Of a stretch of DNA of 64,000 bases, positions 10,713-18,037 are shown one piece after another. This DNA is from an uncultured Prevotellaceae bacterium (lineage in GTDB: Bacteria; Bacteroidota; Bacteroidia; Bacteroidales; Bacteroidaceae). Position numbers and translations under genes: made by a program. Under the pieces are notes generated by a model. It was not told the origin of the DNA. It searched no databases and worked only from the letters and a program-made list of their open reading frames with translations. Location: contig CACZVN010000008.1 in assembly GCA_902784615.1 (NCBI GenBank), positions 1-64,000 on the forward strand. The letters are read 5' to 3'. How positions within the stretch are numbered: position 1 is the first letter of the stretch; each line of letters opens with the position of its first letter.

Positions 10713-10747
10713 AGGACGGCCCTAACAAAAGAACCGTCCCCATGTTA
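10713..10747. repeat. REP-like hairpin, copy 2
   Basis: AGGACGGCCCTAACAAAAGA followed by ACCGTCCCCATGTTAT. Left arm is shortened at its 5' end; the loop and right arm match copy 4. Confidence 0.8.
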
Positions 10748-10854: not shown

Positions 10855-10892
10855 ACGAAAATGGGGGCGGCTCTAACAAAGAACCGTCCCCT
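10855..10892. repeat. REP-like hairpin, copy 3
   Basis: ACGAAAATGGGGGCGGCTCT, then AACAAAGAACCGTCCCCT. One loop base is missing relative to copy 4; the ACGAAAATGGGG lead-in is shared with copy 4. It lies 19 bp before the AT-palindrome element. Confidence 0.8.
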
Positions 10893-11217: not shown

Positions 11218-11262
11218 ACGAAAATGGGGACGGCTCTAACAAAAGAACCGTCCCCATGTTAT
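11218..11262. repeat. REP-like hairpin, copy 4 (most complete)
   Basis: ACGAAAATGGGGACGGCTCT, then AACAAAAGAACCGTCCCC, then ATGTTAT. The arms GGGGACGGyTC and GAACCGTCCCC pair around TAACAAAA. It sits 21 bp past the stop of the 48-aa peptide gene and could act as its transcription terminator. Confidence 0.85.
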
Positions 11263-11282: not shown

Positions 11283-11429
11283 TTACCAGGGTACGCCTCC
11301 AGGCCAATTGGGATCTGTAGGCATTGAACCTTGGAGCAGTTGGGGCTTCTGATGCAGATAGTAAACCTCGTAGGAGGGCTTCACGTATTTTCTCTTCGTA
11401 GTATTCTGTGTCATAATGTTGTCCTCCAT
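11283..11429 (-). CDS. 48-aa peptide, paralogue of the 42-aa peptide at 16083
   Basis: Function unknown. The frame starts with ATG at 11429, 3 bp after the stop of the secreted protein gene, and ends at TAA 11283-11285. The core reads YVKPSYEVYYLHQKPQLLQG, followed by a G/P/D/W/N-rich tail ending PGGVPW. The core matches the 42-aa peptide at 16083-16211 in 12 of 20 positions (Y-x-K-P-S-x-x-V-Y-x-L-x-Q-x-P-x-L-L-x-G). There is no signal peptide or membrane segment. Conservation between two copies at the two ends of one operon argues that both are translated. A charged leader with a conserved core and a variable Gly/Pro tail could suit a processed peptide or a small partner protein; neither is shown. 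Confidence 0.7.
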   Translation of the reverse strand: MEDNIMTQNTTKRKYVKPSYEVYYLHQKPQLLQGSMPTDPNWPGGVPW

Positions 11430-11432
11430 TGT

Positions 11433-13658
11433 TTACTTAATAATGATTTTCTTGCCGTTTCTCACATAAATGCCCTTGCGAGGCTGTCCCGTCACCATGC
11501 GACCCGTCAGGTCGTAGAGCGCGGAGTCCTCCTCGCTTTCCAAGGTCACTGGCACCTCTTCAAGGCTCGTCGTGTCATCATCGTCAAAGCCGTAGAACGA
11601 ACGGGCAGAAGACGGAATCACGATATAGGCCCGATGGGCGGGAATGGTTCCACTAGCTGTGAACTTATAGAATCCTACGACCCCACTAGCGTTCTTACTG
11701 AGGCAGTAGGCATTGCCAGGATTGACCAGGTCGGCATCAGTACCCATCAAACCGTTGCCAGCCAATGTGCCTGTGGCTGACGTCTTTGTCAGTGTTATGT
11801 TGGCTGCCGTCGATTTCAGGATGACGGCATTGCCGGCAGGAATCGTCTTGTCGGCAACTTCTGTCAGGTCGATCTTGTCGCCGTTCAGAGCGCCCGTATA
11901 GACCGTAGTGTTCGCATCGGCTATACAACTCTTCGCACCATTGTAATAGGTTGACCAGTACTCGCCAGTCTTGCCCTCATTAGCCGTCAGACTGGTAGTA
12001 GTCATAAACACGTCTAATCTCGGCTCTCCAGAAACAGCATCCTGTACCCATGGGCCATTTAAGCGGCCATTATTCAGTGCCGTTGTCGTCGTGCCGTCGG
12101 AGAGGTTGGCAGCAGTGGCTTCGTCACCTTGCACGGTACCAATGACCGTCTTATGATAACAGTTGGTCAGACTTGTTGCGTAATGTCCAACGAAACAGGC
12201 CGAATAGGTGGAATGGACGTTTGCGGATGTCGGCAAGAATATACTGTTGCTAATATTTACAGTATTACCATCATAACGCCAAGCTACAAAACCACTACAA
12301 GTCTTTGTTGAAGGTCCATTCATAGATCCGTTGAATAGACAATCATTGATATTCAGAGTAGCCCCGCTATTTTCTGGAGCTGTGCAAGCCACAAAGCCGC
12401 CTAGTATTCCTTCGCCATCTACTATGGTTGACTGTATATTCACGCTCGACTGGCAGTTCTGAATGACACATGCACCAGATGCTACTCCCACTATGCCCCC
12501 TGCAAAACCATAGTAAGATGTGGAAATAGTTCCTGTAGCATGAAGATTTTTGATAGTTGCTCCGCTGATATAGCGGAACAATCCCAAGTAATTTTCTGTC
12601 ACTTCGAAATTGATAGTTATCGTGTGTCCCTGACCGTCGAAAACGCCCTGATAATAAGAACTATTTGTTCCTACCATCGTCTTGTCATTGCCGAGGTTGA
12701 TGTCCGCCGTCATCTTGGCATTAGCAGCTGCATTTGATCCGTTATTAATGATACTGGCAAACTGCTTCCATTGTGCGGCATTACCTATCTGATAATAGTT
12801 ATCTCCATCTTTCTGCAACGTAAACTGCTTCAGCATCGGCTGGCTTCCTTCCTGAACCCAAGGGGCAGCGTCGCCTGTGCGGCCATTATTCAGATTGGTT
12901 GTCGTCGTGCCGTCGGAGAGATTCCCATCTGATGGTTGTGTAACACCTGTTGTTGTAGCATGTTTGCAAAAACAGTTATTGTAAGTACCGTTAAACCCGA
13001 AACCTTCTGTAAATGTGCCAAGAACAAGACAGTTGTTAAAAGTGGGTGCAGGACCGTATGTCGCATTGAAATATCCACAATAAATGCCTGTAATAGAATT
13101 ACTTCCTGTGTATAGGCAGTCGCTGACCGTAGCACTTGCGCCAGTGTCAAGCACACCTATGAATGTACCAACCTGTGCCCAGCCGCCATTTGTACAAACG
13201 TTTGTCACCGAATTCCAGACATTTTCTATTGTGTTCGTTCCACGCAATATACTTGAGATAGAGCCTCCGTATGCATAGACAGAATTAACGGTTCCATCCA
13301 AGTGTAGATTTCTAATGGTTGCCCCCTCTATGAGCGAAAAAGGAGACGCGAACCTCTCTTCATTTGTAACTTTATAAGCAATGGTCAAAGTATGACCTTG
13401 GCCGTCGAAAGTTCCACCGTAAAAGAGTGTGCTACCATTTAAGGTACCACCTATTACCGTCTGGTCGTCGCCAAGATCTATATCCGCCGTCATTTTTGCA
13501 TTGGCGGTAGGGGTTGTTTGGACAAGCGTGGCAAAGTCCTTCCAGTCCTGTACGGAGCCGATGAGATAGTTGCCCGCTCCATCTTGTTCAAGCGCTTTGG
13601 CCGATGTTACGCCCATCAACAGGGCAGCAATCATCAAGATTAATCTACATTTCTTCAT
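11433..13658 (-). CDS. Secreted two-module beta-rich repeat protein with C-terminal sorting-like tail
   Basis: A 741-residue exported protein: signal peptide (MKKCRLILMIAALLMGVTSA, cleavage near AKA), then two homologous modules, about 25-270 and 278-545. Each opens with a W-K-x-F-A segment, has NAKMTADIDLG/INLG and FDGQGHT, and ends in NLSDGTTTT-x-LNNGR. The FDGQGHT and GLUG-like pattern is typical of parallel beta-helix adhesins. The end, YDLTGRMVTGQPRKG then a K-K-x-x-x-K finish, resembles the type IX or Por-like tail seen on Prevotella surface proteins. Repeated Cys-containing turns suggest extracellular folding. It follows the lipoprotein gene by 52 bp and is followed 3 bp later by the 48-aa peptide gene. 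Ligand unknown. Confidence 0.8.
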   Translation of the reverse strand: MKKCRLILMIAALLMGVTSAKALEQDGAGNYLIGSVQDWKDFATLVQTTPTANAKMTADIDLGDDQTVIGGTLNGSTLFYGGTFDGQGHTLTIAYKVTNEERFASPFSLIEGATIRNLHLDGTVNSVYAYGGSISSILRGTNTIENVWNSVTNVCTNGGWAQVGTFIGVLDTGASATVSDCLYTGSNSITGIYCGYFNATYGPAPTFNNCLVLGTFTEGFGFNGTYNNCFCKHATTTGVTQPSDGNLSDGTTTTNLNNGRTGDAAPWVQEGSQPMLKQFTLQKDGDNYYQIGNAAQWKQFASIINNGSNAAANAKMTADINLGNDKTMVGTNSSYYQGVFDGQGHTITINFEVTENYLGLFRYISGATIKNLHATGTISTSYYGFAGGIVGVASGACVIQNCQSSVNIQSTIVDGEGILGGFVACTAPENSGATLNINDCLFNGSMNGPSTKTCSGFVAWRYDGNTVNISNSIFLPTSANVHSTYSACFVGHYATSLTNCYHKTVIGTVQGDEATAANLSDGTTTTALNNGRLNGPWVQDAVSGEPRLDVFMTTTSLTANEGKTGEYWSTYYNGAKSCIADANTTVYTGALNGDKIDLTEVADKTIPAGNAVILKSTAANITLTKTSATGTLAGNGLMGTDADLVNPGNAYCLSKNASGVVGFYKFTASGTIPAHRAYIVIPSSARSFYGFDDDDTTSLEEVPVTLESEEDSALYDLTGRMVTGQPRKGIYVRNGKKIIIK

Positions 13659-13710
13659 ATGGATTTTTGTTTACTATTTTTGGCAATAAGAATAATTAGG
13701 AAATCAGATG

Positions 13711-16050
13711 CTAGAAAGCAAGGACGGAACGGACAAACATCGTACCAGAGGCAGTATCCTTATACCCGCCATTAGCACCACCATCTTTAAAATGCATGTC
13801 CCATGCGGACCGGGTCCCTTTCTCCGAACATGACCAGTAGTGATGATTACCAGTAGGGATAGCAGAAGCGCCAGAAATTGTTATTTTGGCATTAATGTTT
13901 GCCGTCATATAGGTTTCATTATAAACATTAATGTCTAGATTGTCAGAACTGCCAGTCAACCCTTGCACAATCAGGTTCCACTGACCTATCGTGGGCAGGA
14001 ACCAGTCACTAGTACCTGTAGGATGTGTAACTGCATAGTTTGCAGCAGCGTAGGCAGCGGCATGTGTATGACCTTTTCCGCAACCAGCAGCCAATATGGC
14101 GGTGTTCGCAATGCCATATTTATCAGATAAAGCAGTGGGTAAATCATTTGTGAAATTGCTGGTGCAAGTAATGTCGTCAGCTGTGTACCATTGGCAAGAA
14201 TTTCCGCTATTGGCATCTGTCATGGCGATGGCCAAGCCTTTGTAGGTAGCACTACTCGCATCTACTGAACCTGCCGCACCCACATAGGCGATGATGGCTA
14301 CTGGGGTAACTCCTGTGGGTAATGTTCCTACTGGGGAGTAGGCATTACCGTCGTTACCAATGCGCCAGCCCACCTCACTGGATGTTACTGCGCTCAGGGC
14401 CCTGCTTGAAGCCGGAGCATTGTTGGTGAGTGTCCAAGTATCGCCACTTACAGTAGAAGTGAAATGCGTGAATGAACTTGCAGTAGTGGCATTGGCCACA
14501 CCGTCGATAGTTACGGTGCCACAGGTGCCGTAGCTGCCCGGGCCAATATAACCACCACCATTACTGCTTATAGCTGTTACGCTGATTGCATTTTCAGTTA
14601 TGGTAATAGTTCCACATGAACCGTTTTGACCACTACCTATAGCAGCACTACTACCATTACCTATAGCAGTAACAATACCGCCAGATATCTCTATGTTACC
14701 ACAAGGACTATAGTAAGAACCGCCGATACCTGTGGCGTTGTAACCTCCACGAGCAGTAATCATGCCACCGCTGATGGTAATGTTGCCACATTCTGCATTG
14801 TCATTAACACAGCCTATCCCAGCGGCATAATCCCCACCTGTGGCAGTAATGTGACCATCTTTAATGATAATGTTTCCACAACTTGATCTCCAATGACTAC
14901 CAATTCCCGCGCCCTTACCGTTGCTACTGGCATTGAGCGAACCTCCACCCTGAATAGTAAGGGTCTTGGTTTTAGGTATGTGGATACCTGGACAACTTCG
15001 GTAAAAACCCTTAACGGTGTTTGTTGTTCCGTCAGCCAGGATGATGGTGGCATCACCCTCGCAGGTAATACCTGCCCATCCGAAATTGCCATCATCGGCA
15101 ACGCCTGGTCGGTTTATAGTCACTCCATTGAGGGTAACAATAGCAATATTAGGATTATTATCAGCTATAGAGATCTTATAGTTTCCTCCTAACTCACCCG
15201 TCAGCATATCGCCATTTTTTGCTTCATAATTGGCTGTCAGCGTCGAGAGATCTACGTATCCCTTCGTCACCTGATAAATCTTGTTGACAGCCAAGGCCGT
15301 TGAGCCACCGAAACTGATGGCGGGTCTGGTGCCTAAGGTGACGGAGGCATCGCTCAGCGTGGTAGAGCCACCTGGGAAGGCGGCTACGAACTGGGCCTTG
15401 ATATCTCCGCTGACGTTAGCCGTCGTAGTGGAACCTGTGCGCACTACGCCACCACCATTGCTGATGCTGACATCAACGGCTGTACTTGCAGCTGTATTAT
15501 CCACCAACGTAACGTCGAAGCTGATGAAAGCCGACTGCTGGTTGAGTGTGAACGAAGGATTGCTGTAAGTGGCAGAGCCCGTGAAATCACTATACTTCTC
15601 AATCGCCTCGGCCTCAGTGGCAGCAATGGCAGTTGTGGGATAAGTCGTGGCTGTCACCTTATCGCCAGATATGGTGTGCAAGGCGTCGGTGCTGCTCACG
15701 AGGACGGCATTCAGCGCCAGAGTGGAAGCGGGCGTACCGCTGACATTCAGGTTTCCTTCAAATGTGGCTCCTGTGCGTTTACCTTCATCTCCTGCCTTCA
15801 GCGTAAGATAACCATAAACACCCGTTCCCTCCACATAGAGTTTATCTCCTGTCTCGAAAACATATTGTTTTGAACCGTTTAATCCTGCACGTGTCTCAGA
15901 GGCGTTGCTTACTGTGGCCGAGAATGGGACAGTGGTGTATTCCTTGCCGTCAGGTTGTTCAATAATCGTGTTGTCAATGTCACTGCATGCAGTTATGAGC
16001 AACAGGGCTGCCATGGCAGGCAGTGCTCTTATGATCGTTTTCGTCTTCAT
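13711..16050 (-). CDS. Large surface lipoprotein: fimbrillin-like N-terminus, five-repeat beta-helix, DUF1566/Lcl-like C-terminus
   Basis: A 779-residue lipoprotein (lipobox LITAC, C22). Residues about 40-265 resemble fimbrillin-type domains (SETRAG, then beta-rich). From about 380 to 512 come five repeats of about 29-30 residues pairing an A/G-x-G-I-G turn with a C-G-N/T-I strand and a GG-x-ITA segment (Cys near 391, 421, 450, 479 and 510), a carbohydrate-binding-like beta-helix. The C-terminus (DWFLPTIGQWNLIVQG, YWSCSE, and VRSVLAF at the end) matches the DUF1566/Lcl-type domain of surface proteins. It lies 32 bp after the 42-aa peptide gene. Probably displayed on the outer membrane; role unknown. 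Confidence 0.8.
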   Translation of the reverse strand: MKTKTIIRALPAMAALLLITACSDIDNTIIEQPDGKEYTTVPFSATVSNASETRAGLNGSKQYVFETGDKLYVEGTGVYGYLTLKAGDEGKRTGATFEGNLNVSGTPASTLALNAVLVSSTDALHTISGDKVTATTYPTTAIAATEAEAIEKYSDFTGSATYSNPSFTLNQQSAFISFDVTLVDNTAASTAVDVSISNGGGVVRTGSTTTANVSGDIKAQFVAAFPGGSTTLSDASVTLGTRPAISFGGSTALAVNKIYQVTKGYVDLSTLTANYEAKNGDMLTGELGGNYKISIADNNPNIAIVTLNGVTINRPGVADDGNFGWAGITCEGDATIILADGTTNTVKGFYRSCPGIHIPKTKTLTIQGGGSLNASSNGKGAGIGSHWRSSCGNIIIKDGHITATGGDYAAGIGCVNDNAECGNITISGGMITARGGYNATGIGGSYYSPCGNIEISGGIVTAIGNGSSAAIGSGQNGSCGTITITENAISVTAISSNGGGYIGPGSYGTCGTVTIDGVANATTASSFTHFTSTVSGDTWTLTNNAPASSRALSAVTSSEVGWRIGNDGNAYSPVGTLPTGVTPVAIIAYVGAAGSVDASSATYKGLAIAMTDANSGNSCQWYTADDITCTSNFTNDLPTALSDKYGIANTAILAAGCGKGHTHAAAYAAANYAVTHPTGTSDWFLPTIGQWNLIVQGLTGSSDNLDINVYNETYMTANINAKITISGASAIPTGNHHYWSCSEKGTRSAWDMHFKDGGANGGYKDTASGTMFVRSVLAF

Positions 16051-16082
16051 CGTTTTTCTCCATTTAGTTATTGGTTCATCAC

Positions 16083-16211
16083 TTACGGAAGAGGAATATA
16101 ACCAGGATCTCCTCCAAATCCTCCATCACCGCTTCCAGCCAGCAATTTCGGTTGCTGCCTTAACTCATAGACCTTCATGGAAGGTTTCTCATACAATCGT
16201 TTGGCCCTCAT
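16083..16211 (-). CDS. 42-aa peptide opening the surface-protein operon
   Basis: Function unknown. ATG at 16211, stop TAA at 16083-16085. The core YEKPSMKVYELRQQPKLLAG is followed by a glycine-rich tail ending GGDPGYIPLP. It shares 12 of 20 core residues with the peptide at 11283-11429. A TAACTTTG -7 box (16240-16247) lies 28 bp upstream, so this is probably the first gene of an operon that continues into the lipoprotein (32 bp later), the secreted protein and the second peptide. No signal sequence. The length, the conserved core and the position make chance unlikely. Confidence 0.72.
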   Translation of the reverse strand: MRAKRLYEKPSMKVYELRQQPKLLAGSGDGGFGGDPGYIPLP

Positions 16212-16239: not shown

Positions 16240-16247
16240 CAAAGTTA
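16240..16247 (-). promoter_or_regulatory. Candidate -7 box of the peptide/surface-protein operon
   Basis: TAACTTTG on the minus strand, 28 bp before the 42-aa peptide start and downstream of the regulator terminator. The nearest TTTG for a -33 is at 25 bp spacing (16273-16276), longer than usual, which would fit a promoter that needs an activator. Confidence 0.5.
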
Positions 16248-16281: not shown

Positions 16282-16318
16282 AAAATCGACTGACATTTTC
16301 GTTTTGTCAGTCGATTTT
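16282..16318 (-). terminator. Terminator at the end of the Kelch-AraC gene
   Basis: A perfect 14-bp stem, AAAATCGACTGACA at 16282-16295 against TGTCAGTCGATTTT at 16305-16318, followed on the minus strand by a T-rich tail. It includes the stop codon of the regulator gene (16307-16309) and separates it from the peptide operon. Confidence 0.75.
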
Positions 16319-18037
16319 GGTTTTAAATTCGCTGGGAGTCATGCCAGTCAGTTGCTTGAAGGTGCGCAAGAAAGTGCGCTCAGTTGAGAATCCAGACGTC
16401 GTCCATACTTCGGAAATCTTGATGTCAGAGCGCGTACGCAGCAATCGCTGGGCATAGTCTATACGGTATTTGTTGACAAACTGTGTGAACGAGCAGCCGC
16501 GCTGACTGTTGATGCAGTTGGAGATGGCATTGCGGTTAGTACCGAGGGAAGAGGCTACGTCGCTCAGCTTCAGTTCGCTGTCGAGGTATAGTTCCTGCTC
16601 TTCCATCAGGCAGGTGATACGCTGCATGAGGATGTCATCAGGAGGAATCACGGGGACAGGCACCCTGATATCCGCTGCGCTACTATCATTGTGCCAGTCC
16701 CCATGATTCCTCCTGAGAACCGTCAGCAGGAGCACTGTCAACAGAATCAGTCCGAAGACTGCCAGGCCTATCCACAATAACCAATTGATTCCACTTTCAG
16801 ACGAATTGGGGAGGGTGGTTCCCAGACATAACAGCCAGACAGCAGCGGAGGGTGTATAGTTGCTGTTATCAGACAAACCGCCTGCAAACAGCAGGTTGCC
16901 TTCTGGCGTGAGCAGCGGTGCGCAGTCGGGTGTGGCGTTCAGTGGATCCGTATAGTAAAGCATCATTGGAGCAGCGTTGCCCTCTGAGGCTTGGGCATAG
17001 TCGATGCTGAGCACATAGTATCGTGCCTTTTCCGGGGTGGCATGGAAACACCTGCTGATGCCTGCCAGATATGCCCGTGATGCCTGACGATCAACAATGA
17101 TGTTCGAAAAATACTCTATCTGATCTCCCTGATATGCCATAGGGATATCACAGGCCGTGGGATAGAGTGTTATAGTCGGGGATTGCAAATCCCCGACAAC
17201 AGATTGCACCTGGGCAATGGCCACCTGGCCTGTACTGTCTTGTACGGGTAACAGATAGGTGAAGTCGTCGCTGATAAGACTGGCCTCGTCGTGATGCATC
17301 CCCGTCACTAATGGCTGCCATGTTTCGAAGAGTGGGATATGAACCGTGTCTCCCTTCAGACGATCAGCAAAGGTGCAGCGCAGTGTGTCGCCCCTTGTAC
17401 CGATAGAGCCCAGGATGAGGGCATCGCCATCGGCCATCTGGAAGATATAGGGTAAGGAGCGCTCTGTCGCCACATCTTTTATATATTCGAAACTCTGCTT
17501 GTCCTTATTGTCACCCACATGACTCTGTTTTTCATGGAATAGTTCAATGCCATCGGCATGATACCAGTTACCGGCAATTACCACCTGTCCGTTGTTGAGT
17601 TCCAGGGCAGAGGCCCAAACACGTTTCACATTCATATTGCCAAAACCTCTGAACGTGCGGGTCAGGGGGTCATAGAACTCTGCTGTATAGGTCTGTCCAA
17701 TGCCCGTGGGCTGTTCACAGCCTCCTGCCAGAAGAACCTTGCCCGATTTCAGCATCACGGAAATGCCAAAGTCGTGGTTGTAGGTCATCGACAACTGATG
17801 CCACTTGCCGTCTGCGTAGTACTCGGCTGTCGGCGTGGGCACGAAACCGTCAGTATGGCCGCCTGCTACCATCAATTCACCACCTGCATAAAACACCTGA
17901 TGCCCTGCGCGGGGAATGTTCAGGTCTGCCATACGCGTGGCCTCCAGTTTCCTGACTTCGCAGGTGTCGGCAGCCTTCACGCTACCCGTTGCCGAGAGCA
18001 TGGTGCATGATAAGATGAGGTGCAGGAAGGCTTTCAT
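16307..18037 (-). CDS. Membrane-tethered regulator: periplasmic Kelch-like domain, TM helix, cytoplasmic AraC HTH
   Basis: A 576-residue protein with a signal peptide (1-22, cleavage near VKA), a beta-propeller-like region about 35-405 with Kelch-type turns (ELMVAGG at 54-60, KVLLAGG at 100-106, NLLFAGG at 381-387), one TM helix 418-441 and a C-terminal AraC/XylS-type DNA-binding domain 475-574 (ISEVWTTSGFSTERTFLRTF). One polypeptide could thus sense a periplasmic or surface ligand and regulate nearby genes; the natural target is the peptide/lipoprotein operon just downstream. The gene starts 6 bp after the M16 peptidase stop. Two REP-like palindromes lie in frame, at residues about 280-287 and 442-465 (the linker after the TM). 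Confidence 0.82.
   Translation of the reverse strand: MKAFLHLILSCTMLSATGSVKAADTCEVRKLEATRMADLNIPRAGHQVFYAGGELMVAGGHTDGFVPTPTAEYYADGKWHQLSMTYNHDFGISVMLKSGKVLLAGGCEQPTGIGQTYTAEFYDPLTRTFRGFGNMNVKRVWASALELNNGQVVIAGNWYHADGIELFHEKQSHVGDNKDKQSFEYIKDVATERSLPYIFQMADGDALILGSIGTRGDTLRCTFADRLKGDTVHIPLFETWQPLVTGMHHDEASLISDDFTYLLPVQDSTGQVAIAQVQSVVGDLQSPTITLYPTACDIPMAYQGDQIEYFSNIIVDRQASRAYLAGISRCFHATPEKARYYVLSIDYAQASEGNAAPMMLYYTDPLNATPDCAPLLTPEGNLLFAGGLSDNSNYTPSAAVWLLCLGTTLPNSSESGINWLLWIGLAVFGLILLTVLLLTVLRRNHGDWHNDSSAADIRVPVPVIPPDDILMQRITCLMEEQELYLDSELKLSDVASSLGTNRNAISNCINSQRGCSFTQFVNKYRIDYAQRLLRTRSDIKISEVWTTSGFSTERTFLRTFKQLTGMTPSEFKTKID
16641..16713. repeat. REP-like inverted repeat inside the Kelch-AraC gene, linker region
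   Basis: Arms of 23 bp, 16641-16663 and 16691-16713, complementary at 21 positions around a 27-nt loop; core GGGGACAGGCAC against GTGCCAGTCCCC. It encodes the linker between TM helix and HTH, where an insertion would be tolerated. Confidence 0.75.
17175..17197. repeat. REP-like palindrome inside the Kelch-AraC gene, propeller region
   Basis: GTCGGGGATT, GCA, AATCCCCGAC: a perfect 10-bp stem with a 3-nt loop, read in frame as VVGDLQSPT. Different in sequence from the linker palindrome. Confidence 0.75.

Follow-up and report, generated by a model that had tools for sequence, protein, structure and literature searches.

Two small genes on the minus strand of a 64 000-nt stretch of DNA from an uncultured Prevotellaceae bacterium (contig CACZVN010000008.1 of assembly GCA_902784615.1, positions 1 to 64 000; hereafter the window) code for members of a genuine and widespread peptide family. 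We consider it likely that both peptides are precursors of ribosomally synthesized and post-translationally modified peptides (RiPPs) of the linear polyphosphorylated peptide (LPP) type, which would be matured in trans by one operon. So concrete a class of function can be proposed because the family has a candidate maturation operon, a YxxP motif of the type held by RiPP recognition elements (RREs) and a near-invariant serine.

The first gene (16083..16211, 42 aa) opens and the second (11283..11429, 48 aa) closes a group of four minus-strand genes. Between them lie a gene for a lipoprotein (13711..16050; 779 aa, lipobox-like ...ITACSD, with matches to Beta_helix_3 and Lcl_C below cut-offs) and a gene for a secreted repeat protein (11433..13658; 741 aa, C-terminus ...YDLTGRMVTGQPRKGIYVRNGKKIIIK), which has zero matches in NCBIfam and hence none to TIGR04183. 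Coordinates and order were thus as the sequence-only reading had given them; our count also confirmed its figure of 12 identical positions in the 20-residue cores of these paralogs, and, as it had said, no signal peptide is visible in either sequence. The first peptide gene ends 32 nt before the lipoprotein open reading frame (ORF). The frame of the second opens directly after the stop codon of the secreted protein; its real start is probably the inner ATG at 11414, since GGAGGA, a ribosome-binding-type site (11422..11427, minus strand), is situated seven bases upstream, and the product would then have 43 aa and begin with MTQNTTKRKYVKPS. Searches with the two peptides gave no confident Pfam family (best PF13485, E 0.054, below cut-off), no NCBIfam match and, in PHROG, a best match to a family of unknown function (E 0.23); among the matches listed in the open-licence literature there was no description of the peptide family or of a Bacteroidota LPP system.

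The resemblance of the two peptides is beyond chance, since a profile made of just these two sequences recovered seven others from the same genome, with E values between 3.5e-11 and 6.9e-6 (a tenth row, E 1.29, was treated as noise), which brings this genome to nine members. With a nine-row profile the family was seen in 19 of 60 genomes; all 19 were among the 36 genomes of the same genus (the window's included), and none among the 24 from other families. With a 45-row profile, 118 of the 249 genomes sampled from the same family (as defined by the genome-sampling tool) were positive, as were 2 of 247 genomes of an order sample, one of them the window's own. A 95-row profile found at least one member in 154 of the 249 genomes and, in the order sample, in 11 of 295, nine of these outside the window's family; the highest copy number with this profile was 24 (genome G262).

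The N-terminal half, YxxPx(M)xV…LLAGS, is common to the family and is followed by a tail variable in both length and sequence. Tyr, Pro and Ser are invariant across the 45 diverse rows of alignment A3 (chosen by profile from 52 collected sequences); in alignment A6 (95 of 118 sequences) the invariance of Tyr and Pro is partly by construction, as a Y..P pattern was used for trimming. Counted from the Tyr in 124 non-redundant members, Met is found at +5 in 77, Val at +7 in 104 and Leu at +10 in 94. The Ser could be placed in 123 of the 124 (the single miss was an anchoring error) by a script requiring [YF]xxP plus a hydrophobic residue three to four positions before the Ser; it is located at +20 in 112 members, the first window peptide being one of them, at +19 in eight and at +21 in three, with Leu three positions before it in 112. 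Several tails are closed by acidic residues plus Trp, and the tail of one peptide (locus L137, 4600-4818) contains a repeated DDDWDD segment.

The peptides are conserved at the level of the amino acid sequence. In 12 related pairs, hand-picked and mixing orthologs with paralogs, dN/dS was 0.06-0.50 in ten and 1.19 in one, and it was undefined in one that had no synonymous change; between the window and genome G018 the ratio was 0.24 for the first peptide and 0.52 for the second. The sequence-only reading had named a lack of homologs elsewhere or a ratio near 1 as grounds for giving up the family; what we found were numerous homologs and, in ten of 12 pairs, a ratio of at most 0.50. Of the two parts of the peptides the leader is the more constrained, its pooled pN/pS being 0.28 and that of the tail 0.45.

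In three genomes a nucleotidyltransferase-like gene closely follows the peptide gene. Pfam analysis of two such neighbourhoods revealed NTP_transf_5 and, next to it, an S24-like peptidase in each (one peptidase below cut-off); HprK was matched weakly in one of the two. Traced to further genomes, the peptidase led to a conserved operon of an HprK-like kinase, an S24/SpI-like peptidase, a PqqD protein and an ABC exporter; in genome G106 (locus L155) a family peptide is the last gene of an HprK-SpI-PqqD-NTP5-ABC array. A scan with four peptidases retained 80 of 110 named loci, from Prevotella, Xylanibacter, Segatella, Prevotellaceae, Bacteroidaceae, Bacteroidales and one uncultured bacterium, many of them from rumen samples; loci of the cultivated Xylanibacter ruminicola Ga6B6 and Segatella baroniae B14 are included. 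Although many loci were cut by contig ends, an HprK-like gene was near the peptidase in 73, PqqD in 75, the ABC exporter in 57 and NTP_transf_5 in 19; NTP_transf_5 and the exporter are both missing at some uncut loci.

A family peptide was present within the fetched stretch at 19 of the 80 peptidase loci. Within 2.5 kb of the peptidase it was found on the same strand at 13 loci and on the opposite strand at one; it was near in 9 of the 19 loci having NTP_transf_5 (13 and 9 were counted by eye, and the 13 was confirmed by a later computed count). Peptide density was 3.4 per 100 kb up to 2.5 kb from the peptidase (14 in 411 kb) versus 1.24 beyond (10 in 803 kb; binomial p 0.012); with the nine loci of the genomes used to find the operon removed, 10 versus 6 peptides remained (p 0.021).

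The peptidase and the peptides also go together at the genome level. Present in 188 of the same 249 genomes, the peptidase was detected in 151 of the 154 with peptides; the 95 in which no peptide was detected divide into 37 with the peptidase and 58 lacking it (Fisher test ignoring common descent, 2e-27). A peptidase at least 56% identical to that of locus L057 was seen in 13 of 69 genomes, all peptide-bearing, and in none of the 22 labelled peptide-free by the first profiles. By the same labels the exporter (strict threshold) was absent from 9 of the 22 genomes without peptides and from 3 of 47 with them; with the 95-row profile 8 of those 22 gain peptides, and all nine exporter-less genomes stay peptide-free. 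Two genomes of one genus outside the window's family, G332 and G559, carry 17 and 8 peptide copies, and G332 (L175, L176, L247) also has the operon; either horizontal transfer or an old split could account for the peptides of this genus.

The products of the operon retain the residues expected of peptide-binding and catalytic proteins. The PqqD model PF05402 scored over cut-off in all three proteins scanned, and Asn35 and Asp74 of this RRE are invariant (18/18); the best solved relatives of its profile are lasso-peptide RREs, TfuB1 (6jx3, 2e-5) and PbaB1 (9x90, 0.024). The best model for both peptidases scanned was TIGR02228, archaeal signal peptidase (2.2e-7 and 6.9e-6, below cut-off), and Ser29, His67 and a GDGN motif are invariant (15/15). 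For the kinase the best models were HprK_rel_B or ScmC, below NCBIfam cut-offs; His132, Gly152-Lys153-Ser154 (GxGKS) and Asp172-Asp173 are found in 20 of 20 aligned sequences, and a stricter regular expression matched 16 of the 20. For both exporters scanned the matches listed were to ABC_membrane and ABC_tran, none being to a peptidase C39 domain. The macrolactam-synthetase motif SGGxDS/A, looked for by motif scan only in 1779 ORFs of 84 loci, had two matches, an ORF that we take to be TilS-like and a kinase ORF, neither of which we read as a cyclase.

This gene set resembles that of the LPPs. The sections of PMC13381572 that we draw upon describe the system LppA-LppK-LppB-LppS-LppD-LppN of Paenibacillus alginolyticus and LPP genes for a SipW-type peptidase, a discrete RRE, an HprK-like kinase, an NTP transferase and an MsbA-like exporter. 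According to the same sections, LPP precursors have 35-200 aa, an N-terminal YxxPxVLxHQxIxFETxxS and variable C-termini; the RRE holds YxxP through, among others, Asn33 and Asp70 of LppB; the peptidase cuts after Thr-1 (FET-AQS), with LppS needing Ser29, His68 and Asp93; and the kinase phosphorylates Ser3 of the core. The Bacteroidota operon likewise combines an HprK-like kinase, a discrete RRE and a SipW-type putative leader peptidase, at many loci with an ABC exporter and at some with an NTP transferase, and with no cyclase motif nearby. The peptides of the window's family are likewise short and have a conserved N-terminus with YxxP, C-termini that vary and, past the predicted cleavage site, a Ser, their LL-AGS being the presumed counterpart of the LPP cut and Ser3 region. 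By our own reckoning, Asn35 and Asp74 of the Bacteroidota RRE would correspond to Asn33 and Asp70 of LppB. By analogy with LppA, as described there, and from conservation in the family, the first window peptide would be divided into a leader MRAKRLYEKPSMKVYELRQQPKLL (16140..16211, minus strand), whose YEKPSM motif is a putative binding site of a PqqD-type RRE, and a tail AGSGDGGFGGDPGYIPLP; the Ser27 codon in LLAGS (16131..16133, minus strand) would specify the kinase target, the counterpart of LppA Ser3. For the second peptide, with the start at 11414, the corresponding division would be MTQNTTKRKYVKPSYEVYYLHQKPQLL plus QGSMPTDPNWPGGVPW.

There are differences as well. In the consulted sections of PMC13381572 the LPPs are restricted to Bacillota, with most, not all, of the peptidase matches in this phylum, and their role is called unknown; the word 'Bacteroidota' does not occur in the main text of that paper. 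Our precursors, unlike those described there, are found in Bacteroidota, scattered and multicopy, and are mostly tied to a surface-protein gene; also, the NTP transferase is only sometimes a part of the Bacteroidota operon. LPP clusters are linked there to capsule genes; at locus L245 of G018, NTP_transf_5 is situated near the operon between ORFs that we read as sugar-transferase-like, an arrangement reminiscent of the LPP capsule loci. Phosphorylated lasso peptides (paeninodin, Bsf), as described in PMC10368454 and PMC8498205, share with our system a PqqD-type B1 protein, an HPr-kinase homolog, a nucleotidyltransferase, an ABC transporter and a YxxPxL leader motif; the Bacteroidota operon differs in having the SipW-type peptidase, and, the TilS-like and the kinase ORF apart, the motif scan found no macrolactam-synthetase motif at its loci (B2 itself was not searched for). 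The rSAM/GG-motif RiPPs and bacteroidetocins of Bacteroidales (PMC10352776) are alike in having small precursors with leader and core, while leader motif, exporter type and enzymes are different as far as could be seen.

On this reading, maturation would proceed as follows. The leader (about 24-27 aa, Y-x-x-P-x-M-x-V...L-L) would be bound by the discrete PqqD-type RRE; the HprK-like kinase would phosphorylate the near-invariant Ser; the SipW-type signal peptidase would cut just before A-G-S; and the ABC exporter would send out the variable tail, the presumed released part, starting with A/Q-G-S. In some genomes only, the nucleotidyltransferase may make a further addition before export. A single operon would serve many scattered precursors, up to 24 per genome. 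Most of these are probably co-transcribed with a surface-protein gene. Some lie at the head of the transcript, frequently behind a promoter box, with a lipoprotein gene next; others close it, behind the gene of a secreted protein. The modified peptide would thus be made whenever the surface protein is made. A processed peptide had been among the suggestions of the sequence-only reading, and in this it was probably right.

Gene neighbours point to a possible role of the peptides at the cell surface. In layout A a lipoprotein gene begins within 100 nt downstream on the same strand (56 of 124 members, 40 of 672 control genes); in layout B the peptide gene follows within 60 nt a gene whose product has a C-terminus of the KGIYINNGKKVVIK or GxYxxNGKK type (42 of 124 members, 2 of 674 controls). 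Three members have both layouts, seven precede another signal-peptide gene and 22 fit neither, several of the latter being near misses by eye (L066, L188, L052 and L150, for example). The detectors were home-made and the control genes were drawn from the same loci; the count excluded duplicate loci (L197, L244, L248), any locus shorter than 5.5 kb, peptides already represented and those with E over 1e-5. The window has one example of each layout, the first peptide of A and the second of B. The sequence-only reading was right on two points, a real peptide family and a tie to exported proteins. In locus L180 a family peptide (from about 376) runs on in frame, with no stop codon, into the signal peptide of a protein of the secreted type, in an open frame of 1369 codons; as the frame is uninterrupted, a peptide can be situated at the very N-terminus of an exported protein.

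Diversity was seen among the ten lipoprotein partners scanned: two carry beta-helix repeats and one carries an Ig-like domain, all over cut-off; weak matches to Mfa-like, Lcl_C and PI-PLC-X models occurred once each, and four had nothing. The layout-B C-terminal motif had no TIGR04183 match in seven proteins, for which reason we do not call it a signal of the type IX secretion system (T9SS). By the first-profile labels, PorU was found in 38 of the 41 genomes with peptides and in 16 of the 22 without; the 95-row profile turns eight of those 22 peptide-positive, and PorU is in eight of the remaining 14. Dependence of the peptides on T9SS was rejected, as genomes G010, G106 and G254 carry peptides and no PorU.

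Such tight adjacency to genes of exported proteins would also be expected if the peptides were cytoplasmic partners, a chaperone or an export pilot, of the neighbouring protein, with the tail giving specificity. Peptide and partner appear to behave as modules, since G018 keeps the peptide-partner pairs of the window in a changed order, in which the secreted protein and its peptide come first and are followed by the other peptide and the lipoprotein (identities of 319/436 aligned residues, 24/41, 18/27 and 135/359, respectively); modules that travel whole suit such a partnership. Leader similarity tracks partner similarity in both layouts (layout A, rho 0.29, reached in 0 of 500 permutations), and in layout B the tail does so too when the leader is controlled for (partial rho 0.19, p 0.002, n=37); the tail of the second window peptide resembles that of locus L170, whose partner is a remote homolog of the window's secreted protein (7.5e-40). 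In layout A, however, tail and partner show no relation after correction for the leader (partial rho 0.01, p 0.41, n=56; the partner score is coarse and misses remote homology), and a partnership of this sort leaves the RRE-type motif, the near-invariant Ser and the co-occurrence with the peptidase unexplained. We thus regard cytoplasmic partners as unlikely, and the chaperone-like leader that the sequence-only reading had considered is disfavoured.

Several observations weigh against LPP-type precursors matured by the operon. The window's own genome (84% complete, 53 contigs, nine peptides) had no match to NTP_transf_5, peptidase, exporter or RRE, one of these searches having run without a positive control; the kinase was not searched for there. 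In genomes G109 and G119 peptides but no peptidase were detected, in 37 others the peptidase but no peptide, and the co-occurrence statistic is uncorrected for descent. Most members are not near the operon, and the excess near it is only 2.7-fold once controlled. In four peptide-rich genomes (G208, G214, G193, G203) the only operon of this kind is a distant version with no adjacent exporter (in G193 its kinase was not recognized), a version that the peptide-poor G063 and G024 carry as well. NTP_transf_5 was present in 66 of 80 genomes regardless of peptides, and only 2 of 30 NTP_transf_5 loci (1.5-kb flanks) had a peptide; it was rejected as a marker of the maturation system on these counts, and having failed as a presence test it left the peptidase as the better marker. 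The kinases of L155 and L249 match no Pfam model, and the LppB structure 9x8z is absent from the five matches of the RRE profile among solved structures. Finally, the leader departs from the LPP consensus quoted above from PMC13381572, with Tyr and Ser separated by 20 positions here versus 18 in that source.

With nine intact members and no match to four operon components in the window's genome, one could speculate that the peptides are LPP-like by origin and act unprocessed in species, possibly including the window's, that may lack the operon. However, as the assembly is 84% complete, it is plausible that a single locus was missed, and genomes G031 and G018, with some of the best-scoring relatives of the window peptides, do have the operon; we consider unprocessed action quite improbable.

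The two layouts appear to be expressed differently, judging by the frequencies of a promoter-type box and of a ribosome-binding-type site. TAnnTTTG, which we take to be the Bacteroidota -7 box, was found within 110 nt upstream of 31 of 60 peptides preceding an exported-protein gene (53 lipoprotein, seven other signal peptide), of 0 of 38 layout-B peptides and in 604 of 13 520 random 110-nt stretches; a Shine-Dalgarno-like site was seen in 18 of the 38 layout-B and 1 of the 60 layout-A-type peptides (three members with both layouts, 22 with neither and one B with no ATG were left out). Just upstream of the first window peptide a box of this type, TAACTTTG, is located at 16240..16247 (minus strand). 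This frequent promoter-proximal position is what regulatory leader ORFs, attenuators or arrest peptides, for the next gene would have, but in layout B (42 of 124) the peptide comes after its partner, and the amino acid sequence is conserved beyond the reading frame alone, making this role very improbable. The least credible alternative is another RiPP class, double-glycine peptides cut by a C39 exporter: the AGS ending presumably resembles a GS-type site, but a Gly precedes the Ser in only 81 of 124 members while the Ser is near-invariant, and in neither of the two exporters scanned was a C39 domain listed. In its favour, peptidase-containing exporters are common in Bacteroidales RiPP clusters, as far as we could see from PMC10352776.

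The LPP-type gene set is found here in Bacteroidota of the gut and rumen, along with far more candidate precursors in a genome, in contrast to the restriction to Bacillota given in the consulted sections of PMC13381572. This suggests a function class for unannotated small ORFs of Prevotella-like bacteria; the precursors' neighbours, pointing at the cell surface, could offer a handle on the role of LPP-like peptides. The link of precursors to surface-protein genes is new to us. More tentatively, and with less than even confidence, one could imagine a genome-wide surface code in Bacteroidaceae: one operon would modify as many as two dozen precursors encoded at separate places, each of them co-expressed with a single surface protein, and every switch of surface protein would bring its own phosphopeptide, released or surface-attached. 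If true, this would be a new organization of RiPP genes, with precursors as partners of surface genes and not of a biosynthetic cluster.

Directly upstream of the peptide operon, window positions 16307-18037 code for a protein that matches Kelch models weakly and has a clear DNA-binding domain of the AraC type. The sequence-only reading had proposed to see whether Kelch-AraC genes are constant neighbours of the peptides; as a regular partner the Kelch-AraC protein was rejected, as a homolog over more than 350 residues was present in only 2 of 104 peptide loci (the window and L152), and a match of any kind, mostly confined to the AraC domain, in 10 of 104. On the downstream side of the second peptide gene, 20 identical bases belonging to a palindromic GGGGACGGTTCTTTTGTTAGAGCCGTCCCC-type element are found twice, at 10722-10741 and at 11236-11255 (0 expected), with a variant of the palindrome near 10864; the element possibly represents a repeat or terminator family.

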